57,480 nt of DNA from Neocallimastix lanati (nom. inval.) (lineage: Eukaryota > Neocallimastigomycota > Neocallimastigomycetes > Neocallimastigales > Neocallimastigaceae), in the NCBI GenBank assembly GCA_016946835.1, contig JACVTC010000291.1:1-57480 (forward strand), read 5' to 3'. Positions 5,874 through 55,802 of the stretch are shown one piece after another. Both the position numbers and the translations under genes were made by a program. The notes beneath the pieces are model-generated. The model had not been told where the DNA came from. It did not search any database and saw nothing but the letters and a program-made list of their open reading frames with translations. Position 1 is the stretch's first letter; each line of letters begins with the position of its first letter.

Positions 5874-5938
5874 GAATTTATTATATATTATTTATTTTAA
5901 TTTTTATAATTTCATTATTTATCAAAAATGGTACATTA

Positions 5939-6321
5939 CAAAAGAAATTCTCAATTTACAATTAATTATCTTGATATATATTAGTAAGAAAAAACAATTT
6001 GCAATAATATAACTATTTAAAACACTAATTTAAAAATCAGAATTATTTTAGTTTCAAATTGTCTTTATTAATTTTTAGTAATTTCAATTTTGAGATCTCA
6101 TTGATCTCAATTTTACATTTAAATTATTTTTTGATAAATTTTTACTATTTAAAAAATAAACATTGGTTGTTAAAAAAAAATTATTTCTTTCTCTTTCTAT
6201 TTTAAATTAATTTTTTTTTTTTTTTAATTTAACTTTTTATGGATTAATGTTGTTATATTTCTAGATTTTCTTAATTATAATTTATAAATTAAATTTAAAT
6301 ATTTCATTCGGTTTTGTACCA
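5939..6321. repeat. Solo LTR H
   Basis: A 383-bp unit begins TGGTAC and ends GTACCA, and is flanked on each side by AAAA (5935-5938 and 6322-6325), consistent with a 4-bp target duplication. It has no coding content. The right end resembles the sequence ending at 8916. Confidence 0.6.
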
Positions 6322-6325
6322 AAAA

Positions 6326-8100
6326 TGATATGGACTGGGATTGAAACACTAAGATATTCAAAACAAAAAAATAAATATTAACACATAACTATAAAAATAA
6401 ATTTGGAAACAAGAAAAAAATTAAATTTTAAAATATTCTTTATTTAAATTTAAAATTAAAATTATTTGTTCCTAGTATTAAAAAGAAAGAAATTTATTCT
6501 TCTTTTTATACTTTTATTTTAATACATTTTATTTATTATTAATATATTCTTTATTAAAAAAACTATTATAACTATTTTATTTTAATTTTTAACTATTATT
6601 TTAAATTATTTTCTAAAAAAAAAATAACATTTATTAAATTAAAATATAAAAATTAATTTAGAGATTGTATCACGAAGGGCATTCCGGGCGGTAGCTTCTT
6701 CTTGATATTGTTTTCAGAGAGAGAATTATACAGAATTGATATTTTCTGTATTTTAGATCATTTTTATTATTGGAATTCTTCTGTATTTTAGTTCATTTTT
6801 ATTTTAATAAAGATTTAATTTATTTTTGATTTTTGTTTTATTTTTAGTTTATTTCAAAGGTTTAGAAAATATTATACAGAAACTTATAATTCTGTATTTT
6901 ATATCAAATATTTATTGAAATAGGTTTTTATTATTCTTAATATAAAAATAAGAATTAGTAATGATTTAAATATTATATAATTTTTAATAAGAATATTTAG
7001 TAATAATTTTTATTATATTTAATATTAATAAAATATTTAATAATTATTTTTATTATATTTAACATTAATAAAAGAAATTTATATGAATATTTAATAATAA
7101 TTTTTATTATATTTAATATTAATAAAAGAAATTTGTAAGAATATTTAATAATAATTTTTATTATATTTAATATTAATAAAAGAAATTTATAAGAATATTT
7201 AATAATAATTTTTATTATATTTAATATTAATAAAAGTAATTCATAAGAATATTTAATAATAATTTTTATTATATTTAATATTAATAAAAGAATTTTATAA
7301 GAATATTTAATAATAATTTTATTATATTTAATATTAATAAAAGAATTTTATAAGAATATTTAATAATAATTTTTATTATATTTAATATTAATAAAAGAAT
7401 TTTATAAGAATATTTAATAATAATTTTTATTAGATTTGATATTAATAAAAGATTTTAATAAGAATATTTAATAATAATTTTTATTATATTTAATATTAAT
7501 AAAAGAAATTTATAAGAATATTTAATAATAATTTTTATTATATTTAATATTAATAAAAGTAATATATATTAAATATTTATATTATTATCTTATTTTATAT
7601 TATCAATATCAAATATAAATAAAATATAAGAATATAATATTAGCTAAATATTATATTTTATAATAAAAATATAATATGTAGAAATTAATTTAATTGATAT
7701 AAAACAAATACGTGTAGTAACATATTTGTATATTTAATAATAATTATTAAATATTATATAAATTAAATTTATATCTTTTTGATAATAATTATTTTATTTT
7801 ATTTTATTTCAATATGTGTTCAATATGTATTATTATAATTATAATAATTATAATACTTTATTTCATATAAAATTTATATATTTCTATATATTAGAATATA
7901 TAATTAATATATTACCTATTTCTTATAAATAGATTAGATTATTTATATTAGAAATAGAGAACTCTCTTGTAAATTTTTAGGAATTAGAATTATTATTTTA
8001 ATTGTACGAATATTATAATATTATTAATAAAATTTACTAAACTACCATTATTTAAAACCCACTGCTTATAAATTATTGCACATAAAAGTCCCGTATATCA
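6326..8100. repeat. Solo LTR I (F-related), with internal minisatellite
   Basis: It begins TGATATGGACTGGG, separated from LTR H by AAAA. For about 1.2 kb it is closely similar to LTR F at 10356, including a GC-richer island at about 6661-6720 (GAAGGGCATTCCGGGCGG) and a tandem array. The likely end is CCCGTATATCA at 8100, resembling the F end CCCCGTATCA. The right-hand third differs from F, so it may be a recombinant and the end is uncertain. Confidence 0.45.
6985..7560. repeat. 54-bp minisatellite inside LTR I
   Basis: About ten tandem copies of a roughly 54-bp AT-only unit are present. Each combines AATATTTAATAATAA, TTTTTATTATATTTAATATT and AATAAAAGAA-type segments. The unit recurs in LTR F. 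Confidence 0.75.
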
Positions 8101-8149
8101 TAATGACAATCACGTGTTTACATTATTGATATATGGGACTTTTATGTGC
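8078..8149. repeat. 23-bp inverted repeat with 26-nt loop
   Basis: The left arm 8078-8100 (GCACATAAAAGTCCC plus GTATATCA) and the right arm 8127-8149 match at 22 of 23 positions as a palindrome, with a 26-nt loop containing CACGTG. The left arm carries a plausible LTR end (ATATCA) and the right arm a plausible LTR start (TGATAT). Confidence 0.7.
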
Positions 8150-8916
8150 TATATTTTTATTATAATAATATAGTTATATCTTTATTTAATTTATTATTCC
8201 TTTTCCTAAAAACTAAAAAAACCCCCTTTCTAAATTAATTTATTAGAAATTGGTTATTATTAAGAAATTACATTTTAAAATTATAAAATTTAATAGTATG
8301 AAATATATTTTAAACATATAATATAAATTATATATATATAAGAATACAATATCTATATTTAAATAATAAATGTATATTATATGTAAAATAAAAAATAAAT
8401 ATAAAATAATACATAATAATATATTGTATAATATAATAAAAATCCTATTAAAGTTAAATATAAAAATATTATTATATTTTAATATAATAATATATAATTA
8501 TAAAATAAATAATATAATATAATATATTATAAAATAATATGTAATTTAATATATATTATAATAGTAATTATAATATAATAATGAATAATTAATAATATAT
8601 TATAAAAATTATTATCAAAAGATATAAATTTAATATTTAATAATTATTATTAAATATATAAATTAATATAATATATATTAATTTAATATATATTAATTTC
8701 AATATGTTAATAATATTTAGTAATTAGTTGGCCTAGACTATTTCCTAAATATTTTAATAATATTATTATTTTATTATTAATTATTAATATTGAAATTCAA
8801 ATAACTGAATTATTGAAATTGAAATTGAAATTGAATTAAATGTAAATTCAGTTATTATCTTAACATTCCACTCTAAGGCTATATTAATTTTATGGATTTC
8901 AATCGGTCTTGTACCA
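8104..8916. repeat. Probable LTR remnant J
   Basis: This stretch lies between the ATATCA end at 8100 (spacer TAA) and a CTTGTACCA terminus at 8916. The terminus resembles the end of LTR H (CGGTTTTGTACCA). The left boundary is weak. It contains no ORF. Confidence 0.3.
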
Positions 8917-8919
8917 ATT

Positions 8920-9400
8920 TGTAAGAAATTACTTATAAAATTAATTATAAATAATTTCTTAACTACAAATTAACATTAATTATTACTAATTAACATTAAT
9001 TTGAGAAAATAAAATTAAATATAATTAAATAAATATAAAATAAAATAAATAAATAATTATACTTAACTTAAATATAAGATAGAGTTTATTATAGAAAGTT
9101 TATAATAAACAATAACACAAAAGGAATAAAAGACACAAATATTTATAGAATATGTTTTATTAAAAAGGGTTTTGTTTATTAATTAATTATTTCATTTGAA
9201 TTATTATTTATTATAAAAATTCTAAAATAATAACTCTTGATTTCTCGAAGAGAACTCAAGAGAATCAAATATATATAAATTAATAATTAAATATTATTGG
9301 TTAAAATAAATACAATAATTTAATAATTTAATGTATTAAATTAATGTATTAAATAAGAAAGATAGATAAATTTATAATAAATTTATCTAAGTTTCTTACA
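8920..9400. repeat. Solo LTR-like unit K with 9-bp terminal inverted repeats
   Basis: This 481-bp unit starts TGTAAGAAA and ends TTTCTTACA, a perfect 9-bp inverted pair. CAATT lies on both sides (8915-8919 and 9401-9405), a 5-bp target duplication. The left copy overlaps the CA end of the preceding LTR, so the insertion went into the edge of an older LTR. A MITE is an alternative to a solo LTR. Confidence 0.55.
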
Positions 9401-9405
9401 CAATT

Positions 9406-10351
9406 TGGTAGACTCGGGGTGATTCTTATTGATTTAAAATCAAGCAGGGGGGGGACGGGTATTACCCTGCTTTGATTTTAACAAAGAAAAAATTTTTTTT
9501 ATTAAAAAGTGTTTATTATTTATTAATATAAAATTTTATTATTTAAAGTACACATATTTAATTTTTAAGAAATTGTTACAATATTTATATTTTTTTATAA
9601 ATTTAAAGTATAATTAATTGTTTATAATTTAAGTAATTTTATAGAATTATTGAATTAATTTTATATCAATAATTCATTTTTGTTTTAATTTTTATAAATA
9701 TAATAATATAATATTCAAATATAATTTAATTAAAAATAATTATAAAATAAATATATAGAAAATAGTTTTTACTATTTTCTTTGATATTTTTAAGTTAAAT
9801 AAATTGTTTTTAAAGATTAATATAATAAATTTAATAATCTTTAATTATTTTAAATAATACTTGTAATTATTTTCAAAATAAAATAAAATTTTTATAATAT
9901 TTAATTAATAAATTTGATAATAATAATTTTTATAATAAGTAAAAATTTTTAATAATAATTTTTAATAATAAATTTAATTAATAATCTTAATAATTTTATA
10001 ATAATATTTAATAGTTATAATAAATAAATTTTTATAATAATATTTAATAATTATAATATTAATAATTTATAATAATTTTTAGAATAATATTTAATTAATA
10101 GTTTTAATAATTTAGTATCTTAAAAGTATAATTTTAATATTTACAATTGTATTTTAATATACATATATTTAATAATATAACAATAAAGTAATTAATTAAA
10201 ATTTATTTACATTATTTACAAGTTAAAATTAATTTATATCAAAATAAATTAAATTTTATTATTAAGTTTAGGTTATCAAGAATATAGGAAAGTACAATTT
10301 AGTAAAGAATTATTAATAATAAAATAAAGGTTATTAATTCATTCTTTACCA
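9406..10351. repeat. Solo LTR L
   Basis: This 946-bp unit starts TGGTAGACTCGGGG and ends TTCTTTACCA, with AATT on both sides (9402-9405 and 10352-10355). It has a GC-rich hairpin near its left end (9436-9479). It shares the TTCTTTACCA terminus with the LTR of element A, suggesting relatedness. Confidence 0.6.
9436..9479. other. G-rich hairpin in LTR L
   Basis: The arms AAAATCAAGCAGGG and CCCTGCTTTGATTTT pair almost perfectly (one bulged A) around a loop that begins with a run of G residues. It stands out in sequence of very high AT content. Confidence 0.6.
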
Positions 10352-10355
10352 AATT

Positions 10356-12159
10356 TGATACAGGCTGGGGTTGAAACACTAAGATATTCAAAACAAAAAA
10401 AAATAAATATTAACACATAACTATAAAAATAAGTTTGGAAACAAGAAAAAAAAAATTAAATTTTAAAATATTCTTTATTTAAATTTAAAATTAAAATTAT
10501 TTGTTCCAAGTATTAAAAAGAAAGAAATTTATTCTTCTTTTTATACTATTATTTTAATACATTTTATTTATTATTAATATATTCTTTTATAAAAAAAAAA
10601 AAAACTATTATAACTATTTTATTTTAATTTTTAACTATTATTTTAAATTATTTTTTTAAAAAAAAAAAATAACATTTATTAAATTAAAATATAAAAAATT
10701 AATTTAGAGCTTGTATCACGAAGGGCATTCCGGGCGGTAGCTTCTTCTTGATATTGTTATTCAGAGAGAAAATTATACAGAATTGATATTTTCTGTATTT
10801 TAGATCATTTTTATTATTGGAATTCTTCTGTATTTTAGTTCATTTTTATTTTAATAAAGATTTAATTTATTTTTAATTTTTGTTTTTAGTTTATTTCAAA
10901 GGTTTTAGAAAATATTATACAGAAACTTATAATTCTGTATTTTATATCAAATATTTATTGAAATAGGTTTTTATTATTCTTAATATAAAAATAAGAATTA
11001 GTAATGATTTAAATATTATATAATTTTTAATAAGAATATTTAGTAATAATTTTTATTATATTTAATATTAATAAAATATTTAATAATTATTTTTATTAGA
11101 TTTGATATTAATAAAAGATTTTAGTAAGAATATTTAATAATAATTTTTATTATATTTAATATTAATAAAAGAATTTATAAGAATATTTAATAATAATTTT
11201 TATTATATTTGATATTAATAAATGATTTTAATAAGAATATTTAATAATAATTTTTATTAGATTTGATATTAATAAAAGAATATTTAATAAGAATATTTAA
11301 TAATAATTTTTATTAGATTTGATATTAATAAAAGAATATTTAATAAGAATATTTAATAATAATTTTTATTATATTTAATATTAATAAAAGATTTTTATTA
11401 GAATATTTAATAATTTTTATTATATTTGATATTAATAAAAGATTTTAATAAGAATATTTAATAATAATTTTTATTATAAAAGATTTTAATAAGAATATTT
11501 AATAATAATTTTTATTATATTTAATATTAATAAGAGATTTTTATTAGAATATTTAATAATTTTTATTATATTTGATATTAATAAAAGATTTTAATAAGAA
11601 TATTTAATAATAATTTTTATTATATTTAATATTAATAAAAGAAATTTATAAGAATATTTAATAATAATTTTTATTATATTTAATATTAATAAAAGAAATT
11701 TATAAGAATATTTAATAATAATTTTTATTATATTTAATATTAATAAAAGATTTTTATTAGAATATTTAATAATTTTTATTATATTTGATATTAATAAAAG
11801 ATTTTAATAAGAATATTTAATAATAATTTTTATTATATTTAATATTAATAAGAGATTTTTATTAGAATATTTAATAATTTTTATTATATTTGATATTAAT
11901 AAAAGATTTTAATAAGAATATTTAATAATAATTTTTATTATATTTAATATTAATAAAAGAAATTTATAAGAATATTTAATAATAATTTTTATTATATTTA
12001 ATATTAATAAAAGAAATTTATAAGAATATTTAATAATAATTTTTATTATATTTGATATTAATAAAAGATTTTAATAAGAATATTTAATAATAATTTTATT
12101 TTATTATTATTAAGAGTATTTAATAAGAAATACAAGGTATTTAGTGACACCCCGTATCA
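10356..12159. repeat. Solo LTR F, with internal minisatellite
   Basis: This roughly 1.8-kb unit starts TGATACAGGCTGGGG and ends CACCCCGTATCA, with TGATAC/GTATCA inverted ends. It abuts LTR L on the left (spacer AATT) and the element A LTR on the right (spacer AA). Its first 700 bp are nearly the same as LTR I. It has no coding content and no second copy with internal sequence in this window. Confidence 0.6.
11040..12110. repeat. Minisatellite inside LTR F
   Basis: Roughly 18-20 copies of the LTR I unit are present, with unit lengths of about 40-56 bp and mixed variants (TATATTTAATATT versus TAGATTTGATATT). Higher-order repetition is visible: 11390-11600 is largely repeated at 11740-11940. 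Confidence 0.75.
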
Positions 12160-12161
12160 AA

Positions 12162-12990
12162 TGTTATGGTTCGGGTTTTATTAGAATTTTATTTAATTAT
12201 TTATTTTTAATATTTTTCTGTCTACATTTTAACTATTGAAAAACTTCACTTATTTATACTTTTTAAAAAAAAATAAATATGTAAAGCCTTTCTACATTTT
12301 ATTATCATATTTAAAAAAAAATATTTACTATTACTAATTACTTAAAATTTTATATTAATTTAAATTAACTAATTCATAAGTATTTTTATTTTAATAAATT
12401 TTGTTTATATAATTTTATATTATTTTTCATATACTAAAACTAAATTATTTAATATATACGAAAAGTAACAAACAAAATTTAAAAAGATTTTACAGAAAAG
12501 TAAAGTTATTTTAATCAAGAATGTTAATATAATATTCTTATATTTTATATAAATTAAATTTAAAAACTATAATATATTTAATATTTATTATTAATCAATT
12601 AAGATTTGATTTTATTTGTGGGGAATAAAAATATAAAATAATCAATTTAAAAATAAAATAAAATACTAAGAAGAATACAAGTTTAATATTGATACAATAT
12701 AATAATAATATAATAATATATTTGAAAATAAAAATAAAATATTAATATTGATAATAAACACTTTAATAAAATAATAAAATTTAAGGTTAAATTATAGATA
12801 TTGATATTAAAAATATAGAATTATTGATAATATTTTAGAAACTTTTAATAAAAATATAAAAAAAATATATTTAGAAAATATTTTAGTATAGAAAATATAG
12901 TAAAGTAATATTAAGTAAAGAATAATATAATGGATTCTAAAGTAAGTTGAAATTCTAATTAATAATCCATTATATGTTCGTTCTTTACCA
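12162..12990 (-). repeat. Element A 3' LTR
   Basis: In plus orientation it begins TGTTATGGTTCGGG and ends TTCTTTACCA. It is 829 bp and nearly identical to 20230-21057. Confidence 0.85.
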
Positions 12991-13003
12991 AGATGCCCCC
13001 ACT
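12991..13003 (-). promoter_or_regulatory. Element A polypurine tract
   Basis: Minus-strand AGTGGGGGCATCT lies immediately before the 3' LTR start TGGTAAAG, the expected site of plus-strand DNA priming. The same core (AGTGGGGGC) precedes the 3' LTR of element D. Confidence 0.7.
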
Positions 13004-13013
13004 AAGACTCAAG

Positions 13014-16000
13014 CTAATCTATAGCTGAGTTATACTTTACTATATTCTTCAAATGAACATTACGATTCATTTGAATCATAGTATTTGGGTCCGCAAGTGT
13101 TACGGTATTAAATTGTTTTTTTATTACTTTTAAAGGACCGACAAAATAAGGTTCTAATTTAGAACGACTAAAATTTCGAACAAGAACTAAATCACCGATT
13201 CTTATGTTTTTGGAATTTTTCATGCTATTTTTTTCTTCCCTTCGATTGGCCCAATATTTACTTGCGTTCTTTACATTTTCAGCTGCTTCCATGGTCCACC
13301 TATAATGTGAGATAAATTTTTCTAAAAGAATTTCATCTGAAGATTTATTCACTCCTTGTGTAGGTCTAGCAGCAATGTCGAAAGGCTGTTGATCCTCACG
13401 ACCATAAACTAATTCGAAGCTAGAATGTTTGGTTACAGAATTCTTTGTAGTTCTAAGGGCCCACAAGGCTGAAGGTAATACCTCATCCCAGTCTTTATTT
13501 TCTTCACCAAGTAATCTCAATAATTTACCAATTTCTTTATTCCTATTTTCAACCAATTCATTACTTTCTGGGTGATAGGTAGTGGTAAATTTTACGTAAA
13601 CATCATATAGTCCAGGAATATTTTAGTCATATCCGATGTGAATTGAACGCCATTATCCGTTGTAATGACTTGAGGAACTCCATGTCTAGCGAAAACATTT
13701 ATTAAAAACTTAATAATGTCCTTAGATGTAATATTTACAGTAGGTTCAGCCTCCACCCACTTTGTGAAATAATCCACCGCAACAATGATATATTGGTTTT
13801 TATTACCAGTCTTTATTAAGGTACCAATAATATCAAGTCCAAGATGAGTAAAAGGGCCTTCAACTTCTGTTGGAATGTTTTCGGTTGGTTCTGGATATGG
13901 CTGAGGGCGATTTAACTGACATTTTTCGCATTTTGAAATTATCCGTTTTATATCGTTGACCATATCATTCCAGTAGTAACTTTTTCTAAGTCTTTGATAT
14001 GTTTTATAATAACCTTCATGGCCAACATGATGTGCTTCGAGAATTAATTTTAGTTTTTCATTTGTTTCGGTAACAAGTTTTCTATAATTATTTCCATCTA
14101 TAAAATAATCTATACCATCAATCTTTGTAAATTTTTCTTCAATAAATTCTTTAATTACTTTAGAAAGTGAATCATTTTCATCATCTTTATTCGTTTTTAT
14201 AGCTAATACCTTTTGTTCTTTATCGTTCTTCATTCTAGATAAAGCGTCGGCTACTACATTCTTTTTACCTTGCTCATAGCGAATATCCACTTTTAGCATA
14301 CTTGCAGTCAAACACCATCTTGTTTGTCGTGCATTATTCGGTTCCTTATTATTAAATAAACCTAGTAGAGGTTTGTGATCTGTAAAAACTATGGTTCTAA
14401 AGGGGCTTCCCATAATATAAGGTTTTAATTTAGTAATACAATAATATAAAGCCGTTCCTTCCAAATCGGTTATTCCATAATTCTTTTCTGCTTTGGTTAA
14501 GCTACGGCTAATGAAATGAATCGGGTGTTCTATTTCCGATTCGTCTTTCTGCAATAAAACTCCACCAATACCTTCATATGATGCATCTGTTCGAATAATG
14601 AATTCTTTGGAAAAATCAGGATATTTTAAAATAGGAGCATTAATTAATTTTTCTTTTAATTTGGTAAAACTTTGTTTTTGTTCATTATTCCATTTATATT
14701 TTACGCCTTTTCTTAATAGCTTACAAAGAGGAGCTGAGGTTTGAGCATATTCATTTATAAAGTTCCTATAATATCCTACAGCACCTAAGAATGATCTTAA
14801 CTCATGTATATTCGTGGGTTCTTTCCAGGCTTTAATTGCTTCAATTTTACTATTTTGAGGACTAAGACCCTTAGTAGAAATCTTGCGACCAAGAACTTCA
14901 ACTTCCGTTTGCATAAAGTGACATTTTTCAATATTAATTTTTAATTTATGTTCCTTGAAGATTGCTAATACTTGTTTTATGTGTTGGATATGTTCTTCGA
15001 CAGTTTTTGAATATATAAGTATATCATCAATAAAGTTGAAAACACATTTTCCAATTAAAGGAAATAAAATTCTATTCATTTCCCGTTGGAAGGTAGCCGG
15101 AGCTCCAGTTAATCCAAAAGGCATAACTTTGAATTGGTAGTTGCCAAATTTGGTTGTAAAACTGGTTATTTCAACACTTTCTTCGTCCATTAGGATTTGA
15201 TGGTAACCTGAGTATAGATCCATAGTAGTAAAGATTTTGGCACCATCTAGACTGTCAAATATCTCGTCAATATAAGGAAGGGCATAAGAGTCTTTTTCGG
15301 TTAGATCATTCACCTTGCGGTAGTCCACACACAATCTCCATTTTCCATTAGCCTTTGGGACCACAACAACAGGTGAAGACCATTCTGAATATGATGGTAC
15401 AACTAGCTTTTTCTTAATAAGTTTAATTAGTTCTTCTTTAATAATATCAGATTTAAATTTGGTTACTCTGTAACATCTTTGTTTAACAGGTTTTGCGTTC
15501 GCTTTCAAGTTAATTTTATGAGGGGCCAAGTCTGACGGTGTTAATTCTTCAGAAGATGTCGCTATAATGTCCAAGTTTTCTTCAAGTAATTTTACTATTA
15601 CATCTTTATAATCTTTACAAAGGCTTGCTAAAAATTTTTCATCATGGATATACTCTTGCGGAGATAGACCTTCAAGTTTCTTTAATTCATTAGTTGTGTC
15701 TTCATCTTCAAGTATTTTCCTTACTATACATACTAATTTTTCTTCTTCTTGGAAATTATTATTAATAGGAGCTATAACGTCGATTAGTCCTTGAGAATTA
15801 AATTGACATAAACTATATCTTATAGGATGGATAAAAAGATTGTGTTCTACTTGAGTTTGAAAATTAATCAACAAATCATAAAATGGGTCATCATCATCAA
15901 TTATTCGAAAATCTACTATCATTTTATAATCATTAATCTTAACAGGTATTCGTACAATGATTCCTTCCGAATACTCATCATTCTTAGTCGCTAAACGTAT

Positions 16001-17117
16001 CCTTCCACGACTAATACCTACTTCTTCATAATTTCCAGGTAATTTCTCATAAAATTTTTTTGTGATAACATTGAGGTTACTACAAGAATCAATAAGTGCT
16101 TTACCAGGAATTTCATCTACTGTTACATCAACCATGGCAATATCTTCTTCTGAGGTTTCCTTACTTTTGCTAATATAAGAGTGATCAATATTATTTACCA
16201 AAGTAGCAGCAGCAATAGTATTGTTTAATGCACCTATTATTTTCTTTTCAGGTTTTTCTAATTTTAATCCTTGACTTACTTGACTTCTGACTTTTGGAGA
16301 AACATTGAGGAGCTGACCGAAACTAATATTACACTTGGTTTCATTCAAATCTTGTAAAACATCATATTCTTCCTGATCCTTACACATCTTGATGTTCCTA
16401 AGCGTTCTACTAATTGTTGCTTTTTCTTTAGGCTCTTGAAAATCTATGAGCTTCTGTAATGTAATATTCTCATGACCTTCGTCATTAAGCTTTTCAGGAA
16501 CTTCAATAACTTCCATTTCATTGATTTGTTTTGTTTTAATAATTTTATCGTTTTCATTATCGATTAATTTATTTAATCGTTGATGCATTTTATCACTAGT
16601 AGTACTGATGCTATTTCTTTGTTTTGAAGAATCCAGACTTTGCTTTTCTCTTATAGTAATATTATCCTCCCTTTCCTTCCTTTTTCCCTTGTTATTTCCA
16701 AAGTTAGCTCTTTCTTTATTCCGAATTTGTTTTTCTTTGGCTTTCTCAATATTTATATTAGGCTGCGCCATTATCGAAGGATGTAGTTGATTTTTATTTT
16801 TAACAATTATTCTATTTTCTATTTCCTTCTCTTTTATCTTTCTTATTGCAAGAGTTGTTATAGGGTAGAATTATCTTTGAGACTTTTACGTTGTCTCTTT
16901 TCATTATTTTCACTAGTTTCATCGTTAGTCGTCAACTTCCTTTTTGTCGCACTAACTATAAATTCTACATCATTCTCATTATCGGATTCTTTGTGAGTTT
17001 CATTAGTATAGGAAGCATCTTCTTTTTCTTCCTTATTATAATCATTTGTACTACTAGGAATGGATTTGTATTGTAATGAAGCTATTTTATTTTTATAGGG
17101 AGTGCTTCCTCTCCCTT
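13014..17117 (-). pseudogene. Element A pol (protease-RT-RNase H-integrase), two frameshifts
   Basis: The main open frame (13592-16771) has a retropepsin with LIDSCSN, RT with PFGLTGAPATFQ and FIDD (about residue 600), RNase H (RTDASYEG, FTDHKPLLG), and integrase with an H2C2 finger (HHVGHEG ... CEKC) and TTDNGVQF. The integrase end continues in another frame at 13014-13556 and finishes with a GPLKVI (GPY/F-like) motif and no chromodomain. Comparison with element E shows a one-base deletion near 13590 (after KIFLD) and another near 16860 (after KSLKDNS). The second cuts the frame between the frameshift site at 17124-17130 and the protease. Apart from these, the protein aligns with E throughout, so inactivation looks recent. 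Confidence 0.85.
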
Positions 17118-17130
17118 TTAGTGGTTTAAA
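17078..17130 (-). promoter_or_regulatory. Element A gag-pol -1 frameshift signal with pseudoknot
   Basis: On the minus strand, gag ends TCT TTA AAC CAC TAA, giving the slippery heptamer T TTA AAC (17124-17130). An 8-nt spacer leads to stem 1, GGGAG/CTCCC (17111-17115 with 17098-17102 in plus coordinates). The stem 1 loop carries GAAGC, which can pair with GCTTC (17078-17082) after a 15-nt loop, forming an H-type pseudoknot. Pol is open in the -1 frame from here to the first frame lesion. Confidence 0.8.
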
Positions 17131-18011
17131 GATTTTCCACTATATAACCGTTTCTTATTTTCTTGAATAATTGCATTTAACTTAGGACAATTATACTGCA
17201 AATGTCCTGGATCGCTACAATAAAAACAGGCTTTAATGGTAAGATTTTTCATTTTTTTTGTTAAGTCCTCCAATTCGTAATCTTTATTTCTTTTTGGGCT
17301 TCTAACTTCATAATTCTCTCTTACTACCTTTCTGTTGTTTTGATAATTATTCCTGATATTTATTCTTGGGTTGACAATTTCAGTTGAGTACTCTTTTGAG
17401 GGTCTCAAATTCATTACTCTATCAACTTTTTCGGCAATGTCAAACGCCCGATTTAAAGAAATGTCATCCTTAAGGGAGACCTTTTTCCAAGCTTCTTCAT
17501 TGTTCCTAAGAGCATCAATATAATCGAGAACACTGACTCGCTTCTTTCTTTTCTTATCTAATTTCAAATATATGGATCGGAAACGAGTATTAAAGTCTTT
17601 TACTCGCTCATTTCTTTTAATTCTTAAAGCACGGAGCTCACGAAGTAACATATTCTGGTCTTCTTTAAGACCATAAAAAGTTTCTATTGCTTCTACAATT
17701 TCCTTTAAGGAAGGATATTCATCTTTTTTCTTTTCTTCTGAATCAGATTCTTCTTCTTCTTCGTCCTCACTTTCTGATTCAGAATCGGTACTGTAACTTT
17801 CAATTAAATCCTGGATAACTTCGCGAGGCTCTCCAGTAGACGTGAGTAAGCAGGCGGTAAAAATCTTTTTGGGATCAGTAACTTCCTCAAGTTTTATCCA
17901 TAATCGGATTTCTGATTCCCAAGATTTGATATCGAGATTTTCCTTTGAAATTTTCTCGATATCTTTTAATTCCTTTTTTAATTCTTTAAAATTGATTTTA
18001 TTTTCAGCCAT
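17118..18011 (-). CDS. gag: Element A Gag
   Basis: The capsid/nucleocapsid precursor that forms the virus-like particle. The start is placed at the internal Met at 18011 (MAENKINFKELKKELKDI), because it aligns with the element E Gag start; an in-frame Met 13 codons upstream is less likely. The N-terminal capsid-like region includes LDIKSW and WIKLEE. There is an acidic insert of about 30 residues (SESESEDEEEEE type), then a conserved stretch with LRALRIKRNERVKDFNTRF, and a single CCHC knuckle (CFYCSDPGHLQYNC) near the C terminus. The last codons form the slippery site for entry into pol. Confidence 0.85.
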   Translation of the reverse strand: MAENKINFKELKKELKDIEKISKENLDIKSWESEIRLWIKLEEVTDPKKIFTACLLTSTGEPREVIQDLIESYSTDSESESEDEEEEESDSEEKKKDEYPSLKEIVEAIETFYGLKEDQNMLLRELRALRIKRNERVKDFNTRFRSIYLKLDKKRKKRVSVLDYIDALRNNEEAWKKVSLKDDISLNRAFDIAEKVDRVMNLRPSKEYSTEIVNPRINIRNNYQNNRKVVRENYEVRSPKRNKDYELEDLTKKMKNLTIKACFYCSDPGHLQYNCPKLNAIIQENKKRLYSGKSLNH

Positions 18012-18132
18012 TTGAAAATTTAAAAATGGTATTAATGCTATGATATCCAATTTAAAAATATGTTTACTTTAAAAATATATTTAATAACAAAAAAAAAATA
18101 AATTTATCTTTGTTTTATACTAATATAATTAT

Positions 18133-18303
18133 GGACTCAGAAAACCCTCTGACAATTCAATTCTTTATTCCAATAATAATTCAGACTCAGAATCTCTCTC
18201 TGAAAATCTGATAAATTAATTCAGACTCGAAAACACCCTTCGAAAATCTGAAACTAAAAAAAAAATAAATTCAGACTCAAAAACGCAATTTGAAAATCTG
18301 AAG
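18133..18303 (-). other. Four tandem covarying hairpins upstream of gag A
   Basis: Four imperfect repeats start near 18133, 18180, 18220 and 18270. In units 2-4 an outer TTCAGA/TCTGAA stem encloses an inner 4-bp stem with a 7-nt loop. The inner stem is CAGA/TCTG in units 1 and 2, CGAA/TTCG in unit 3 and CAAA/TTTG in unit 4, so pairing is kept while sequence changes. The position between leader and gag suggests an RNA role such as packaging or dimerisation. That role is inference. Confidence 0.75.
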
Positions 18304-19217
18304 CTTTTTATTATGAATTTTAATGTTTATTATACTCTCTTAAGCATTAATACACAAAATATGTATATCTTAATCTTTTTTTTTAAATTTATTTGTAGTA
18401 ATAACTTCTTTATTTAATTTTATTTAATATATTTATTTCCTTTATTAAAATAATTAATATAACATAAAGCAAATTGTATAAATACTTAAATAATAATAAT
18501 AATGTATATTTATTTTTATTTTTATTTCTTTTTTGTATATATTTATTATTCTATTAATTCTTTGTTATAACATTTAATGAAATATTAAATAAAAAGTTAA
18601 AATACAAGCCAAACTATATAGTGTTGAACCATCAAATATATAGCTTGTTAACCCTTCTTACAATAAGTCCCCTTAGCTCTTTATTGATAAGTTGATAATG
18701 TCGATTGTTAATTATTAAGAAACTTAATAAAAAGAAGGTAGCAATATTAAATTCTTTTTAATTTGGCTAACTTATTGTTAGTAATAAAGAAGATAATAAC
18801 GTATCCTTCCCAGTATCAACAAGATCAAAACAATAAAGTATTATGTGTGGGTGTTCAACTATCCCGCGTAGAGAGTTGTAAGACAGCTTATTTATATTTT
18901 TCTTTTTAATTAAAATTTAATTAATTATATAACGAATAATAGAAAATTTAACACACACAAAAAAAAAAATTTCAATTATAAAAATTTCAAAAAAAAATTT
19001 AATTATATAAAATCATAAAAATAATAATAATAATCTAATTTTATATATTCTATATATATATTGTACATGTATATATTAAAAAAAATAAAATAAACTGATA
19101 AACATAAAAAAAAATTACAATTTATTATTTAGAATTATTAATATAAAAAAAATTAAAAATTTGTACTACAAAAAAAATTTTTTTTTTGCTTATTATTTTA
19201 ATATTTATCATTAATTA

Positions 19218-19256
<39 letters not shown>

Positions 19257-19297
19257 TATATAAATATATATCTATGATAATACTATTGGTTAAAAAA

Positions 19298-19335
<38 letters not shown>

Positions 19336-19500: not shown

Positions 19501-19504
19501 TATT

Positions 19505-19770: not shown

Positions 19771-19881
19771 AATATTAACTTCGTAAATTTGTTAACTTTT
19801 TATTATTTTTTTTTTTATTATTATTTTTTTATCTATAATCTATAATTAAATAAAGTTACTACAAAAACTAAAGTTTTTCAA

Positions 19882-19921
<40 letters not shown>

Positions 19922-20223: not shown

Positions 20224-20229
20224 AAATTA

Positions 20230-47761: not shown

Positions 47762-48067
47762 TGTTAAGGTTTTAGAGAATTAAATAAAAATAAAGTAAGG
47801 AAACACAAATTTTATTTATTTATTTATTATTTTTATTTATAAATTTATTTGATTTTATTTGATGATATTTAAAAATTAGTAGCAAAATTTACAACTATTT
47901 ATACTTTTTTTCAAGGCATAAAAGTTGTTCTTGCCACTAAATTACATTTTATTATTATTTTTCTTTTTATATATAAAAACTATTAAATTTAAATTGATTT
48001 TTATAATCAATTATATAAAATTTAATTATAACAATATAAATAAAATACATTTATAATATTAATAAAA

Positions 48068-48120
<53 letters not shown>

Positions 48121-48614
48121 TTATTCTAAATCTATCTAAAATATTACTAATAAGAATTTATTTAATTGGCTATAATTTTTATTACAATCTGTTAAAATAT
48201 TCAAATAAAAATAAAAATACTATTCTAATATAAAGGTTTTTAATAAAATAAAATATTTTTCAATATAAAATAAAACATTTCGATATAAAATTTTATAATA
48301 AAAGTTAAAATATAATATATAAATTTTTAATTATCAATATATAAAAATATTATTAATATAAATTTTCATTATTAATATAAAAAAAAAAATAAGATTTATT
48401 ATTAATATTGCTAATATAAGTTTTAAATATATAAAAATATTACTATTAATATAAGATTTAATATAAAAATATAAAGTTTAATATAATTTTTGATTTAATT
48501 TTTGATCTTTGGATTTAAAAATTTATTAAAGTACAAAAATAATAATGTACACATAATGTATTAGAAATAAATCGTAGATTTAATTAAGAATGCATTATTT
48601 AGTACATTCTTATC
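47762..48614 (-). repeat. Element E copy 2, 3' LTR
   Basis: TGTTAAGG to CTTATCA, with a T run of about 50 at 48070 and a variant TTATTATTTTTCTTTTTATA segment at 47950 not seen in the other E LTRs. Confidence 0.85.
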
Positions 48615-48633
48615 AAGATGCCCCGACGAAGAC

Positions 48634-51600
48634 TCAAGCTTCTCTGTAAGCGGAGTTAAACTTTACTAAATTTTTAAAGTGAACATTCCTATCGAGTTGC
48701 TTTCCAGTCTTCTGATCGATTAAGGTTGCCGTGTTGAATTGAATTTTTAAAATTTTAAATGGTCCATTGTAATATGGTTCTAGCTTAGTGCGGCTAAAGT
48801 TTCTAACAAGAACAAGATCACCAGCCTTTAATTCTTTTCCTTTTTTCATACTTATTTGTTCTTCTCGTCTTGTTGCCCAATACTTGTTAGCATTCTTCAC
48901 ATTTTCGCATGCTTCTCTAGTCCATTGATAATGACGAACAAATTTTTCCATTAAAATTTCATCATATGATTTACCTGCATTTTCAATTGTTCTTATGGCT
49001 ATATCATAAGGCTGTTGGTCTTCTCTTCCATATACTAATTCAAAACTAGAATGTCCAGTAGCTGTATTTTTGGTAGTTCGAAGTGCCCATAAAGCAGAAG
49101 GTAAAACTTCATCCCAATCTTGATTTTTCCTTCCTAATAAACGAAGTAATTTTCCAATTTCTTTATTTCGATTTTCAGTAAGGCCATTTGATTCAGGGTG
49201 GTAAGTAGCTACAAATTTAACATATACATCATAAAGATCAAGAAAGATTTTAGTCATATCAGAAGTGAATTGGACTCCATTATCAGTAGTAATAACTTGA
49301 GGTACACCATGTCTTGCAAAAACGTTTATTAAAAATTTAATTATATCAGAGGAAGTTATGTTTTCAGTGGGTTCGGCTTCAACCCATTTGGTAAAGTAAT
49401 CAACAGTTACTATAATATATTGATTATTATTTCTTGTTTTTGGTAACGGTCCTATAATATCTAATCCTAAATGCACAAAGGGACCCTCCACTTTAGTTGG
49501 ATGGTTTTCGGTTGGTTCTGGATATGGTTGAGGACGATTTAACTGGCATTTTTCACAATTACTAACAATTCTTTTGATATCTTTAATCATATGATTCCAA
49601 TAAAAGTTTTTCTTAAGTCTTTGATATGTTTTGTAATATCCTTCGTGGCCAATATTATGAGCTTCTAAAATTAATTTAAACCTTTCATTTTCGTCCGTTA
49701 TTAATTTTCTATAATTTCCATTGTCGATAAAGTAATCTTCACCATCAATAACAGTAAACTTTTCATTAATAAATTCCTTTATAACTTTAGATAATAATTC
49801 TTCATTATTTCCATTAGTAATTTTTGTTAATAATATCTTTCTCTCTTCCTTACTTTTCATTCTTGAAAGAGCATCAGCTAACACATTCTTTTTGCCTGAT
49901 TCATATTTTATATTAATTCCAAGCATACTAGCGGTTAGACACCATCTTGTTTGCCTTGCATTCAAAGGTTCTTTATTCTTAAATAAACCAACTAATGGTT
50001 TATGATCTGTGTAAATAGTTGTAGGTAATGGATTTCCTTCAATATAAGATTTAAATTTAGTCATACAGTAAAACAAAGCGGTTCCTTCTAAATCGGTAAT
50101 ACCATAATTCTTTTCAGCTTTCTTTAAACTTCTACTTATAAAGTGTATTGGATGCTCCTTACCGGTTTCTTCTTCTTTTTGTAAAAGAACTCCACCAATT
50201 CCATTATACGAAGCATCAGTTCTAATGATAAAAGGTTTGTCAAATGACGGAAATTTTAGAATAGGTGCATTGATTAATTTTTCTTTTAGGAGTTCAAAGC
50301 TTTCTTGTTGTTCTTTATTCCATTCATATTTAGGTATTCTTTTTCAATAATTTACATAAAGGTGAGGTAATTTGAGCATATTTAGGAATAAAAGTCACGA
50401 TAATATCCCTACTGCTCCTAGAAATGATCTTAATTCATGAAGTGATGAAGGGGCTTCCCACTTCTTAATAGCTGTTATCTTACTTTCCATGGGACTTAAT
50501 CCTTTAGTAGTAAGTTTGTGACCTAATACATCAACTTCAGTTTGAAGAAAATGGCACTTTTCAATATTAATTTTTAACTTGTTTTCTTTAAATACTTCTA
50601 ATACTTGTTTAATATGAATTAAATGTTCTTCGATACTTTTTGAATAGATCAAAACATCATCAATAAATACATAAACAAATTCACCAATAAAAGGGAATAA
50701 AATTTTATTCATTTCTCTTTGGAAGGTTGAGGGAGCTCCAGTAAGTCCAAAAGGCATAACCTTAAATTGATAATTTCCAAACTTAGTAGTGAAAGTGGTT
50801 ACTTCAACGCTTTCTTCATCCATTAAGATTTGGTGAAAACCAGAAAATAAATCAAGAGTTGTAAATATTTTAGCTCCTCCGAGACTATCAAAAATTTCAT
50901 CTATATATGGAACTGAATAAGAATCTTTTTCTGTCATATCATTGACTTTTCGGTAGTCAATGCACAAGCGCCACTTTCCATTGTGTTTTAGAATGAGTAC
51001 TACTGGAGATGACCATTCTGAACAGGATGGTTCTATCAATCCTTTCTTAATAAGCTTTGTAAGTTCTTCTTTTAAGATATCTGATTTTAATTTAGTTAAC
51101 CTATAACTTCTTAATTTTACTGGCTTTGCATTTGCTTTCAAACGGATCTTATGTGGTGAAAGTTTAGAAGGAGTTAGTTCTTCTGTTGAAGTGGCAACTA
51201 TGTCAATCATTTCTTTGAGAATTTTAATAATTTGTTCTTTATAATCTTTATTTAAGGTACTTAAAAATTCATCACTCTCAATAAATTCCATTGGAGTTAA
51301 TTCCTTTATAATTTCCTTTTCATTATTCGTTTCTTCAACTTTTCTAATAGTGCAGATTATACTTTCTTCATCATAATATTGATTATTTATTTTAGCTATT
51401 TCTTCGTATTCACTTTCTGACAAAAGTTTACATAGACTGTTTAAGGTTGGATGAATAAATAAACAATGATCGATTTGAGTTTTAAAGTTTATTAACATAT
51501 CATAAAATGAGTCTTCTTTCTCAATAATTCTAAAGTCCGCATTAAATTCATAATTATTAATTTTTACTGGTAATCGAACAATAATTCCTTCCGAGTATTC

Positions 51601-52452
51601 TTCATCTTGTGTTGCTAGTTGGATTCTTCCACGACTTTTTCCAACTGTTTCATATTCACCAGGTAATTTATCAAAATACTGCTTAGTAACGATGCTTAGG
51701 TTACTACAAGAATCAATTAAAAGTTTTCCTAGTACTCCGTCAACACTTGCATCAACCATTGCTAAGTCTTCTTCGGCTACTTCATTACTTTTACTTATGT
51801 AGCTATGGTCATAGTTATTTACTAATAAAGTTCGTGCTATTACATTGTCTACAGTTCCAATTATTTTAGACTTTTCTAACTTTAAACCTTGAGTTAATTG
51901 TGAACGAATTTTAGGACATGCATTCAAGAGTTGACCTATCGTAATACTGGATTTAAGATTATTTAAATCATCCATAATATTGTAAGGTTCTTTATTATTC
52001 ATCATTTTGATATTCCTTTTTACTAATTGAGTATTTCCATTATTAGTTTCCTTAGTTTTTGTTGAAATTAATTTTTCCAAAGTATTAGTTTTATTTTGTT
52101 GATTATCTTTATTCATTTCTAGATCTTCTATTTCATTATCGATTACAAGTATATCTTCAGATTCAACTTTTTCCTTTCCTTTTGATGAATAATTGTTGTT
52201 TTCTTCTTTACTTTCTCTTACTCTTGTCATATTTCTTAATTCCTTTTCTTTTTGTTTTTCTTTGTTAATATTTGGTTGAGTTAAAATTGAAGGAAGTATT
52301 TGATTTTTATAAACTTTATTTGGTTTATTATGCAGCTCATTTTCTTTCTTCTTTCTTAAAGCAGGAGTTGCAAAAGGACGTGGATTATCTTTTAAACTTT
52401 TATGTACTTTCTTGGAATTATTTTCTTCTTTTTCGCTGTTATTATCATTCAT
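48634..52452 (-). pseudogene. Element E copy 2 pol, disrupted between RT and RNase H
   Basis: The protein is almost identical to copy 1. The protease and RT part (50395-52452) stops at AVGILS, and the RNase H and integrase part resumes in frame (open from 50076 to 48634). Compared with copy 1, single bases are inserted near 50333 (TAGGTATT), 50391 (ATAAAAG) and 50404 (AATATCCC). Together they restore the original frame but leave a 70-bp window out of frame with a stop. It is either a real knockout or a local consensus error. The LIDSCSN protease motif and all other catalytic motifs are present. Confidence 0.85.
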
Positions 52453-52591
52453 TTTTCTTTTTACAGCATTTATAATGATATCATCCTCACTTCAGTTGTC
52501 ACTAAAATCAGATTCTTCAGATTCTTCGTTAAAGGAATTATTATCAATTGGAGTATTCTTAGTAAAAGTATTATTTTGTAAATTATTTAAT

Positions 52592-52644
52592 GAAGCTATT
52601 GTTTTGTCATTGGGAGTGCTTCTGCTCCCATTTAGAAGTTTAAA
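52592..52644 (-). promoter_or_regulatory. Element E copy 2 frameshift signal
   Basis: Same T TTA AAC heptamer (52638-52644), 8-nt spacer, GGGAG/CTCCC stem and GAAGC/GCTTC second stem as copy 1. Confidence 0.8.
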
Positions 52645-53537
52645 GACTTTTTGGAATATATTTCTTTTTTATTTTTTTCCATAATCTTATTTAATTGAGG
52701 GCAATAGTATGAGTAATGACCTTCTTCCTTACAGAAGAAGCAAGTTTTAACGGATAAATTTCTCATTTTCTGGGTTGATTCTTCTATAATATCTTGAGGT
52801 TTCAGTTTATTATTTGTTTGACTTGTTTGGAAAGTTTCGTTTCTTCTTTTAGGATAAAGTCTTGAAGTAGTACTGTTTTGATTATTTTGATTATGCTGGG
52901 AATTATTAACATTATAGGTATTAATATTATTGTTCCTTACAGAAAGTCTATCTACTTTCTCGGCAATTTTGAAAGCTTTCTCCATACTTATATCATCTTT
53001 AAGGGATAATTTCTTCCAGGCTTCATAATTATTTTGAATAGAATCAATATAATCTAGTACACCAATGCGCTTTCTTCTCTTTTTATCAAGTTTAGTGTAC
53101 AAAGTTCTATATCTTACATTAAAGTCTTTAATCTTTTCGTTTCTTTTAATTCGCATTGCACGAAGTTCTTTAAGAAGTAAATTTTGGTCTTCTTTAATAC
53201 CGTAAAAATTTTCAAGACTTGAAATAATTTTTTCAAGAGAAGGAAATTTATCATCATCAACATTTTCTTCTTCATCATCTTCTTCTTCATCTGATGAATC
53301 ATCACTTTCATCATCACTATCTTCTCCCAAATCTTCAATAACGCGTTGTACTTCACCAGAGCTGGTAAGTAAACAAGCATTAAATATTGTTTCCGGATCT
53401 GTGATACCTTGTATCTTGATCCAAAGTTTTAATTCAGTAGCCCAGGACTTTATATCTAAATTGTCCTTGCTAAGCTTCACTATGTCTCGTAATTCTTTCT
53501 TTAATTCTTTAAAACTTAAAGTACTTTTAGTAGACAT
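52632..53537 (-). CDS. gag: Element E copy 2 Gag
   Basis: 301 residues, identical to copy 1 Gag, with acidic insert and CFFCKEEGHYSYYC knuckle. Intact, so this copy could still supply Gag although its pol is broken. Confidence 0.9.
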   Translation of the reverse strand: MSTKSTLSFKELKKELRDIVKLSKDNLDIKSWATELKLWIKIQGITDPETIFNACLLTSSGEVQRVIEDLGEDSDDESDDSSDEEEDDEEENVDDDKFPSLEKIISSLENFYGIKEDQNLLLKELRAMRIKRNEKIKDFNVRYRTLYTKLDKKRRKRIGVLDYIDSIQNNYEAWKKLSLKDDISMEKAFKIAEKVDRLSVRNNNINTYNVNNSQHNQNNQNSTTSRLYPKRRNETFQTSQTNNKLKPQDIIEESTQKMRNLSVKTCFFCKEEGHYSYYCPQLNKIMEKNKKEIYSKKSLNF

Positions 53538-53722
53538 TTCGTTTTTAGTTAATAATTTTTTTTTATTAGTAAATTAACGAGGTTATTAAATACGAATAAA
53601 TTTGAAAGTCCAACTTTAAAAATATAATTTAACAAGTAATTTAATATCGAATCAAATTTTAAAACAATATATCTTAGTAATTTTTGAAAATAATAATTTT
53701 ATTTGCTTTCTTTAGTAAGTAT

Positions 53723-53910
53723 AAGCTCGAAATCCTTATCGACAACTTAGTAGAAATTATAAAGCACGAGGTTCTTTTCGACTACTTTTTTAAGAATAAT
53801 TTTAAGTTCGAAATCTTTATCGACAACTTAATAGAATAATTTTAAGTTCGAAATCTTTATCGACAACTTAATAGAATATTTTTCAAGCTCGAAATCTTTA
53901 TCGACCACTT
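53723..53910 (-). other. Five tandem hairpin repeats upstream of gag E (copy 2)
   Basis: Same five units as copy 1, at 53723, 53762, 53804, 53844 and 53885. Confidence 0.65.
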
Positions 53911-54085
53911 GAATTTTGTAATTTAGTATATTTGTAGTAATAAATTTAGAAGCAAAGTTTTATTTATTATTTTCACCTTTCAAAAATTTTTCTTTTTAAA
54001 CGATAAATATTGTATTGTTATAGCTAATAAAATTATTAATTAATTATAATTATTAAATACAAAAAAATAATCTTTATTGTCGTAC

Positions 54086-54234
54086 AATCTGATAGTACAC
54101 ACTGTCTGACGTGCAGCTTACCTAATGGTGTCATGCCACGCGTGTGCCACGATTACTATATTCAATATAAAATATAGCAGTTCAGAGCCCACTAGCCCAA
54201 TTACTATGTAGGATAAACTTAATCCGATAATCTA
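54086..54234 (-). ncRNA. Conserved structured leader element (E copy 2)
   Basis: Same sequence as the copy 1 element at 46052-46200. Confidence 0.65.
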
Positions 54235-54932
54235 TGTACGGAATAAAAAAATTTTAAAAGTATTCAATAATATTTTTATTAACTAATAAAAATTAACTAA
54301 AAACACAATATTTTCAAAGTAAATTAAGATTCTATTACAGGAATTATATAACAAATAAAGTACCAGTAATAAAAAAAAATAAAAAAAATTTAAATGGCGA
54401 AGTTAGCCAAAGTCTGATACTTTATATAATAAAGTGCCTTATAACTAGCACAAAGAAAAGTAAAAAAAATTATATAAAAAAAACAATCTTACGCCTTCGG
54501 TGACGTAAGCTCCTTATTCGCCAGTGCTTGGAAAGTACCCGCACCTTCGTGTGTTGAAACGTTGAAGGTTGAACTATTATTACCGGGTCGGTAACCAAAT
54601 ACCTTCGTCTACTTTCCAATTAATCTCCAAATTAACTACTATTCAATAACCTACTATGAATAGAGTTAATTTGTTGCTATCTGAGAATACACTGTGTATG
54701 AGCTCTATCCGCTCCTTGTTATAATTTTACAAAATTTGTTTTTTTTTAGAATCTTAATTTTACTTATTTAAAAAAAATTTTTTTTATATATATATCAAAC
54801 AAGCGCCATAGGTTAATCAAAGGATTAACGACTTACTTGTTTATCAATATAAAATAAAAAAAAATTAAAAAAAAAAATCTATGTTATTTACTATTATTTC
54901 TATTTAATTCCCCGATATCTCCACCATATAAA

Positions 54933-55234
54933 TGTTAAGGTTTTAGAGAATTAAATAAAAATAAAGTAAGGAAACACAAATTTTATTCATTTATTATTAT
55001 TTATTTATTTATTTTATTAATTTTACTTGATGATATTTAAAAATTAGTAGCAAAATTTACAACTATTTATACTTTTTTTTCAAGGCATAAAAGTTGTTCT
55101 TGCCACTAAATTACATTTTATTTATTTTTTTTTTTTTTTATAAAAACTATTAAATTTAAATTGATTTTTATAATTAATTATATAAAATTTAATTATAACA
55201 ATATAAATAAAATACATTTATAATATTAATAAAA

Positions 55235-55288
<54 letters not shown>

Positions 55289-55787
55289 TTATTTATTTAA
55301 AAATATCTAAAATATTACTAATAAGAATTTATTTAATTGGCTATAATTTTTATTACAATCTGTTAAAATATTCAAATAAAAATAAAAATACTATTCTAAT
55401 ATAAAGGTTTTTAATAAAATAAAATATTTTTCAATATAAAATAAAACATTTCGATATAAAATTTTATAATAAAAGTTAAAATATAATATATAAATTTTTA
55501 ATTATCAATATATAAAAATATTATTAATATAAATTTTCATTATTAATATAAAAAAAAAATAAGATTTATTATTAATATTGCTAATATAAGTTTTAAATAT
55601 ATAAAAATATTACTATTTAATATAAGATTTAATATAAAAATATAAAGTTTAATATAATATTTTGATTTAATTTTGATCTTTGGATTTAAAAATTTATTAA
55701 AGTACAAAAATAATAATGTACACATAATGTATTAGAAATAAATCGTAGATTTAATTAAGAATGCATTATTTAGTACATTTCTTATCA
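54933..55787 (-). repeat. Element E copy 2, 5' LTR
   Basis: TGTTAAGG to TTCTTATCA, with a T run of about 48 (from 55239). It diverges from the other three E LTRs near 54985-55025 and has an extra T near the right end. It is the LTR nearest the tRNA gene. Confidence 0.85.
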
Positions 55788-55802
55788 TCAAAAAGTAACA
55801 TA

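Follow-up and report, generated by a model that had tools for sequence, protein, structure and literature searches.

A chain of LTR retrotransposons before a tRNA-Ser gene of Neocallimastix lanati as a probable record of repeated targeted integration

Why do long terminal repeat (LTR) retrotransposons stand end to end directly before one tRNA gene in the fungus Neocallimastix lanati? The window analyzed here is the whole of a small contig (JACVTC010000291.1 of GCA_016946835.1, 57,480 nt; C214 below) from a genome of 199,045,447 bases in 762 contigs, and is strongly AT-rich (9–33% GC in 2-kb slices). It holds 14 LTR units or elements linked by 13 junctions of 2–5 nt, the final unit ending 15 nt before tRNA-Ser(GCT). 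A first-pass annotation had described a chain of at least fourteen TG...CA units with A/T spacers of 2–5 bases, and we recovered the 14 units and all 13 spacers. The chain starts at 5925/5929 rather than at the proposed 5935, and the proposed 15-bp gap was confirmed, with the right LTR of the last element, E2, ending at 55787 and the tRNA starting at 55803 (Rfam). The annotation also had five coding elements pointing away from the tRNA; this holds for A, B, D, E1, and E2, all on the minus strand, but there are six in the stretch, and the sixth, C, is nested and reads towards the tRNA. A, B, C, and E1 contain reverse transcriptase (RT), RNaseH, and integrase (Pfam) in that order between LTRs and are thus of the Ty3/gypsy (Metaviridae) type.

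The chain very probably records how several Ty3/gypsy families that lack a chromodomain integrated, repeatedly and in a targeted way, at one RNA polymerase III (Pol III) gene. Two lines of evidence bear out the earlier suggestion of an insertion record at one Pol III locus: target duplications, and a survey of LTR edges in which 60 of 81 sampled edges from families A, B, D, E, F, and X abutted a tRNA, a B-box, or another LTR vs 2 of 14 for C.

Genome-wide survey of LTR edges

The tRNA-facing LTR edge of each family was searched alone (200 bases; 100 for X; 238, right edge, for C), and the best 40 candidates per search were scored out of first-look totals of 856 for E, 513 for A, 397 for D, 272 for B, 134 for F, 500 for X, and 312 for C. 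Flanks were read for 30 of the 40 E matches (window’s own edge included), for 20 presumed outer edges each of A, B, D, F, and C (in list order, window’s own excluded), and for 8 edges chosen from 40 full-length X matches. We then removed edges internal to an element (14 of E, 4 of F, 3 of C, 2 of A, and 1 each of B and D) and loci that duplicated a flank (4 of D, 3 each of E, F, and C, 2 each of A and B, and 1 of X). All remaining edges were classified by one script; the 81 include the window’s E2 edge, and one scored D edge lies on contig C757, which carries a second copy of the same stack.

The 81 distinct outer edges comprised 12 at a tRNA, 14 at a B-box, 34 at an LTR start, and 21 unclassified:

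A: 2 tRNA, 3 B-box, 7 LTR start, 4 unclassified
B: 2 tRNA, 1 B-box, 11 LTR start, 3 unclassified
D: 3 tRNA, 2 B-box, 6 LTR start, 4 unclassified
E: 5 tRNA, 6 B-box, 0 LTR start, 2 unclassified
F: 0 tRNA, 2 B-box, 6 LTR start, 5 unclassified
X: 0 tRNA, 0 B-box, 4 LTR start, 3 unclassified
C (n = 14): 0 tRNA, 0 B-box, 2 LTR start, 12 unclassified

By comparison, the B-box pattern occurred in 50 of 20,000 random 90-nt slices of the window. The first-pass annotation had named a lack of enrichment upstream of Pol III genes as a result that would speak against it, and in these samples 26 of the 81 edges lay at a tRNA or B-box. The LTR-start rule was fuzzy and passed the two C edges, one of them a T-run; it replaced a stricter rule (exact 14-mer), under which 63 of 96 edges were assigned to a class with repeat loci still counted, against none of 17 C edges. 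A composite query of LTR end plus tRNA favors tRNA neighbors and was kept as a lead only, outside the counts.

Distances to the tRNA at the 12 edges were 8, 16, 14, 14, 15, 14, 14, 13, 13, 12, 13, and 14 nt (ARAGORN), so that 11 of 12 fell within 12–16 nt of a full range of 8–16 nt; the window’s own distance scored 13 by ARAGORN and 15 by Rfam. Spacers were scored in 36 cases, two of them from C, and measured 1–6 nt, most commonly 4 (15 cases, one from C) and then 3 (12 cases). F edges reached B-box sequences only (2/13) and no true tRNA gene. One D edge (L083, contig C290) stood beside an unusual G+C-rich sequence that ARAGORN did not call as a tRNA and that gave no B-box match. As sampled, A, B, D, E, F, and X behave as Pol III-targeted LTR retrotransposons in the manner of Ty3.

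The survey was also run from the tRNA side. Twenty of 40 tRNA-Ser matches, not chosen for LTRs and nine of them on contig C555, were read upstream and compared with a limited collection of loci from the same genome analysis. A repeat known from other loci ended 12–18 nt upstream of 11 of the 20 tRNA-Ser(GCT) genes; three best matched another tRNA-Ser locus and were left uncounted, and six had no upstream repeat match, four of these ending by eye in an LTR-like CA. Genome-wide there were 9278 first-look tRNA candidates, 63 of which were scored. C555 carries dense arrays of tRNA-Arg and tRNA-Ser genes.

Elements might instead prefer LTR ends or A/T-rich TG/CA junctions, the tRNA being incidental. 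That 34 of 81 edges abut an LTR, and that duplications can take in LTR end bases, would fit such self-targeting, but 11 of 13 distinct E outer edges lie directly before a tRNA or B-box sequence, among them different tRNA isotypes, and tRNA-Ser genes sampled regardless of LTRs carry different LTRs at one distance. We regard self-targeting as very improbable.

Target duplications and order of insertion

The chain reads from left to right as follows, with junction coordinates read by eye:

5925..12159, no strand assigned: left part of the chain, units 5929–6321, 6326–8100, 8104–8916, 8920–9400, 9406–10351, and 10356–12159 (family X)
12162..21057, minus: element A, full-length Ty3/gypsy type, LTRs 99.5% identical, pol split into two open reading frames (ORFs) in the window
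21063..28181, minus: element B, full-length, LTRs 99.5% identical, gag and pol ORFs
28185..29208, minus: solo LTR of family F, strand inferred from copies with the internal side seen
29213..36788, no strand assigned: solo LTR G, interrupted by C
29697..36737, plus: element C, full-length, LTRs 100% identical, nested in solo LTR G
36793..39709, minus: element D, short, a single 489-aa ORF and no pol, LTRs 100% identical, duplication TAAA/TAAA
39715..47758, minus: element E1, full-length, open gag and pol ORFs, duplication AAAA with E2 set aside
47762..55787, minus: element E2, full-length, duplication TCAA on C757
55788..55802, plus: leader of 15 nt between the last LTR and the tRNA
55803..55882, plus: tRNA-Ser(GCT) gene, the Pol III target, starting at 55803 by Rfam and 55801 by ARAGORN

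Spacers, left part: AAAA 5925–5928, AAAA 6322–6325, TAA 8101–8103, ATT 8917–8919, CAATT 9401–9405, AATT 10352–10355
Spacers, middle part: AA 12160–12161, AAAAA 21058–21062, AAA 28182–28184, AAAA 29209–29212
Spacers, right part: TAAA 36789–36792, TAAAA 39710–39714, TAA 47759–47761

Each of A, B, C, D, E1, and E2 is delimited by an LTR pair in the window’s self-comparison. C is nested in solo LTR G and carries its own 5-bp duplication (TTTTA), and is therefore not a link of the chain.

For ten E elements, drawn from 15 LTR pairs found beyond the window, we read both flanks. Flanking 4-mers were equal in 9 of 10 elements vs 3 of 90 swapped pairs, and a 5-base match occurred once, in a run of A. 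The E target duplication is 4 bp, which separates E from Ty3 proper with its 5 bp. By eye, the 5' LTR was the side towards a tRNA gene or a tRNA-like sequence in eight of the ten; L144 abutted another E in the same orientation, and L130 was reversed, occupying the usual spot next to a tRNA-like sequence. The bias in orientation is strong without being absolute.

Contig C757 preserves the end of the chain. There the E1/E2 junction reads TTATCA-A-TG, with a spacer A instead of the window’s TAA, and TCAAAAAGTAAACATA lies between E2 and the tRNA. The E2 duplication on C757, TCAA, incorporates the three terminal bases of E1; E2 was therefore inserted after E1, on the tRNA side. With E2 set aside, E1 is flanked by AAAA/AAAA, and with E1 also set aside, D is flanked by TAAA/TAAA (left flanks from the window); the D-TAAAA-E1 junction is identical on C757 (L070). 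The flanks of F (AAAA/AAAA) and B (AAAA/AAA..) fit a duplication by eye. These duplications show the order D, E1, E2 with the newer element on the tRNA side, and with them the repeated use of one site that the first-pass annotation had put forward. Its further idea, that insertion into LTR edges contributes, stands insofar as targets may include LTR end bases, but this belongs to the same process rather than a separate one.

LTR identities are consistent with this order: 99.5% for A and B, 100% for D, and on C757 0/877 differences for E1 and 1/842 for E2. E1 LTRs also showed 0/861 substitutions in the window. E2 LTRs differ at 28 of 848 sites in the window vs 1 of 842 on C757, and dating E2 by its window LTRs was dropped. 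Elsewhere, contig C401 has an LTR of the 9406–10351 kind, TTCA, D, TTCA, and the next LTR, and both C401 and C395 have F, TTCA, and an LTR with the same start. The two contigs show one 4-mer reused.

Survivor bias, in which insertion is random and only copies in harmless sites are kept, would draw on the view of tRNA flanks as safe sites (PMC5006619) and on the many tRNA-like candidates in the genome. Selection alone would hardly fix a distance of 12–16 nt or the 4-bp reuse of one site, however, and C, with identical LTRs on the same contig, had 0 of 14 sampled edges at a tRNA or B-box. We consider survivor bias highly improbable.

Assembly reliability and points against the reading

A chain stitched together from repeats is the alternative with the most weight, though still an unlikely one. 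C214 is a small whole contig, and its right end probably carries consensus errors: two G’s are absent from its tRNA-Ser relative to C757, and the E2 LTRs look mosaic. The stretch from 15.3 to 36.0 kb is known from C214 alone. Against an artefact, C757 (737 kb) starts at window position 35985 and carries D-E1-E2-tRNA, and C235 (1.49 Mb) carries window 1–15292, including the X-A junction, before ending inside A (five points, 98.6–100% identity). The same junction types recur at many loci, and stacks with other element orders occur on further contigs, such as C401. Misassembly could alter the length of the stack (15.3–36.0 kb), not the process.

Several observations weigh against a record of repeated targeted integration, or against our account of it. 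C449 shares the left arm and the X-A junction (three points, 98.6–100% identity) but passes from that junction and A into tRNA-Ala, in conflict with C214, and its far end, positionally beyond the window, has no match to the window. One of the two contigs is chimeric or recombinant; two A LTR edges of different types on C449 led us to judge it the likelier one. The flanks of A (CAAA/AAAA) and G (AAAA/TAAA) are each one base short of the expected duplication, and the E2 duplication is inexact in the window itself, its reading being restored by C757 only. Among the seven sampled X edges, none scored at a tRNA or B-box. The script left 21 of 81 edges unclassified, although by eye most of these start N3-5-TG and L242 resembles a tRNA. 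A purpose-written pattern led to the exclusion of D edge L071 as internal, and this edge may be a genuine outer one with no target beside it. Right-edge queries detect one orientation beside a tRNA only, the left edge having been tested for E alone. Finally, only 1 of 7 tRNA-Arg genes (7 of 63 found) had an upstream repeat match; by eye, three of the seven followed another tRNA-like gene, one followed an LTR-end-like sequence, and two, mutually identical, were ambiguous.

Integrases of the targeted families and of C

Integrase tails separate C from the targeted families. After the GPY/F motif, 40 residues remain in E1, 49 in B, and 38 in A vs 116 in C. Relatives on the E side that have the motif (n = 115) show a median tail of 47 counted from the motif, with 17 exceeding 90, and those on the C side (n = 39) a median of 134. 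Judged by length, the A, B, and E integrases have no room for a Ty3 chromodomain, and in this they differ from Ty3 proper. The E integrase model is of low confidence (pLDDT 67.3, pTM 0.35) and has no second barrel; its first match is foamy virus integrase, with Ty3 tenth. The C model (pLDDT 80.5, pTM 0.62) matches Ty3 integrase (7q5b) first, over 438 columns, and ends in three strands and a helix. The C tail had no Pfam match at E 1, and many of C’s relatives, among 120 listed, carry PF00385. The modeled C-terminus of the C integrase is suggestive of a chromodomain.

The best PDB relative of E pol, which has the RT-RNaseH-integrase order, is Ty3 (7q5b, 8.6e-105). E pol is 40% identical to B and 65% to A. 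Few of its 120 listed relatives are named: four bear eukprot names like jgi/Orpsp1_1, which we take to be Orpinomyces, the best at 74% identity over 69% of the query; the remaining named relatives are from a pseudoscorpion (31–44%). We accordingly read the host as one of the anaerobic gut fungi (Neocallimastigomycota).

In Ty3, TFIIIB holds the integrase at the tRNA gene: the C-terminal domain contacts TBP and the vestigial chromodomain contacts Brf1 (PMC8632968). The targeted elements here probably use the C-terminal domain or another part as a tether, not a chromodomain of the Ty3 type.

tRNA-like targets and element T

Some targets are tRNA-like sequences and not tRNA genes, and at least one kind lies at the edge of another repeated element. 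Many targets hold A- and B-box sequences yet are not called as tRNAs by ARAGORN, and Rfam found a tRNA in only 2 of 16 loci submitted, not all of which contain odd targets. Given the few Rfam hits, we do not call these sequences tRNA genes.

Among 40 matches to one tRNA-like kind were seven pairs on the same strand, spaced 5.2–5.3 kb apart. Of six copies examined, five adjoin a repeat edge starting TGTAACGAAATC, and the sixth has a B-type LTR inserted there. The repeat is apparently the LTR of another element, T. The single T internal piece read has a gag-like ORF (Ty3_capsid 9.7e-15), and this ORF and a sequence like a primer binding site point opposite ways. At L220, L221, L223, L224, L228, and L229 (contigs C323, C1, and C223), the tRNA-like box sits at the repeat edge, and at some of these loci E, A, or B is inserted just before it. 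Helenus elements, which are terminal-repeat retrotransposons in miniature (TRIMs), have A and B boxes inside their LTRs (PMC10886601). T would resemble them in its tRNA-like boxes within LTRs, but Helenus is short and non-autonomous, whereas T copies are often ~5.3 kb apart and one internal piece has the gag-like ORF.

Proposed mechanism

Under repeated targeted integration, each element would integrate at a fixed spot ~12–16 nt upstream of the first base of the mature tRNA, in most cases with its transcription directed away from the gene, and the target would be cut each time with a 4-bp stagger, which we infer for families other than E and D. The next element would land equally far from the tRNA and thus enter between the previous LTR and the gene, either reusing the old 4-bp duplication or with the target sliding 1–3 bp into the last bases of the previous LTR. 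The outcome would be spacers of ~2–5 nt, with the oldest element farthest from the tRNA. By analogy with Ty3, the ruler would be TFIIIB assembled on the tRNA gene, with which the integrase would make contact. Solo LTRs presumably arose by recombination, and A, B, F, and G would follow the same order.

Other features of the window

In the left part, units 5929–6321, 6326–8100, and 8104–8916 rest on a TG..CA reading only, and the right ends of F, X, and unit 9406–10351 were set by copies elsewhere in the genome. The right end of the last of these recurs 14 nt before another tRNA-Ser. Positions 6317–7694 are similar to 10347–11716, and a 54-bp minisatellite lies within two related LTR units (6882–7717 and 10978–12107). 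Where two chain units meet, 8080–8150 forms an inverted repeat around AAAAGTCCCGTATATCA / TGATATATGGGACTTTT. The B gag matches Ty3_capsid below the curated cut-off. F, G, and X are present in the window as LTRs only; by eye, an LTR start like G occurs at L089 and an end like G in the left flank of an E copy (L136). Outside the chain, 4869–5629 is an E-family pol ORF fragment ~95% identical to E1 and E2, and at 354–1499 a 168-bp tandem repeat is present in about six copies, some of it within a coiled-coil-like ORF (985–1656, plus).

Known systems and significance

Ty3 of Saccharomyces cerevisiae integrates just upstream of Pol III start sites (PMC8632968, PMC5911963), and elements of its kind make a 5-bp duplication (PMC5014426). 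The elements here share with Ty3 its domain order, its place as best PDB relative of E, and insertion just upstream of Pol III starts. They differ in that the Ty3 integrase binds TFIIIB with a vestigial chromodomain, whereas those of A, B, and E end 38–49 residues past GPY/F, and in that the E duplication is 4 bp and E mostly reads away from the gene. Dictyostelid DGLT-A is a Ty3/gypsy element with no chromodomain found ~15 bp upstream of tRNA genes (PMC5006619); compared by description only, it matches in type, lack of a chromodomain, and distance, but was described in compact genomes, whereas here several families use the same base pairs in a 199-Mb genome.

Tj1 of Schizosaccharomyces japonicus is Pol III-targeted in a fixed orientation, in the tRNA direction, with a 5-bp duplication (PMC4600332). 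The targeting is alike, but orientation is biased here rather than fixed, A, B, D, and E read away from the gene in the window, and E duplicates 4 bp; the fixed orientation of Tj1 is not shared. In Yarrowia lipolytica, Tyl3, Ylt1, and Tyl6 lie upstream of Pol III genes (PMC5911963), likewise several Ty3/gypsy families in one fungus, but the Tyl3 duplication is 5 bp (PMC5014426), and the available portions of these two papers mention no stack. The gut-fungus retrotransposon literature, by titles and abstract openings and with subscription journals mostly outside coverage, described no Pol III-targeted elements, and the words Neocallimast and anaerobic fung are absent from the review PMC5911963.

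Pol III targeting has been discussed as a way to colonize compact genomes (PMC5006619). In the present genome, which is 199 Mb in size and rich in repeats, such targeting is common and extends across families whose pol is only 40–65% identical. We tentatively suggest, at a little short of even chances, that a guild of LTR retrotransposons in an early-diverging fungus shares a base-pair-precise address at Pol III starts through a tether other than a Ty3 chromodomain; that the T LTR, with its tRNA-like promoter, is a mobile landing pad by which the target itself multiplies; and that stacks are time-ordered archives. On one and the same contig, a tail resembling the Ty3 chromodomain occurs in C, none of whose sampled edges lay at a tRNA gene, and the elements that are targeted do without it, so the tether probably lies elsewhere, and what a targeted integrase truly needs becomes directly testable. 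Since newer insertions lie on the tRNA side, as shown for D, E1, and E2, each stack would be a layered record open to comparison across tRNA genes, haplotypes, and strains.

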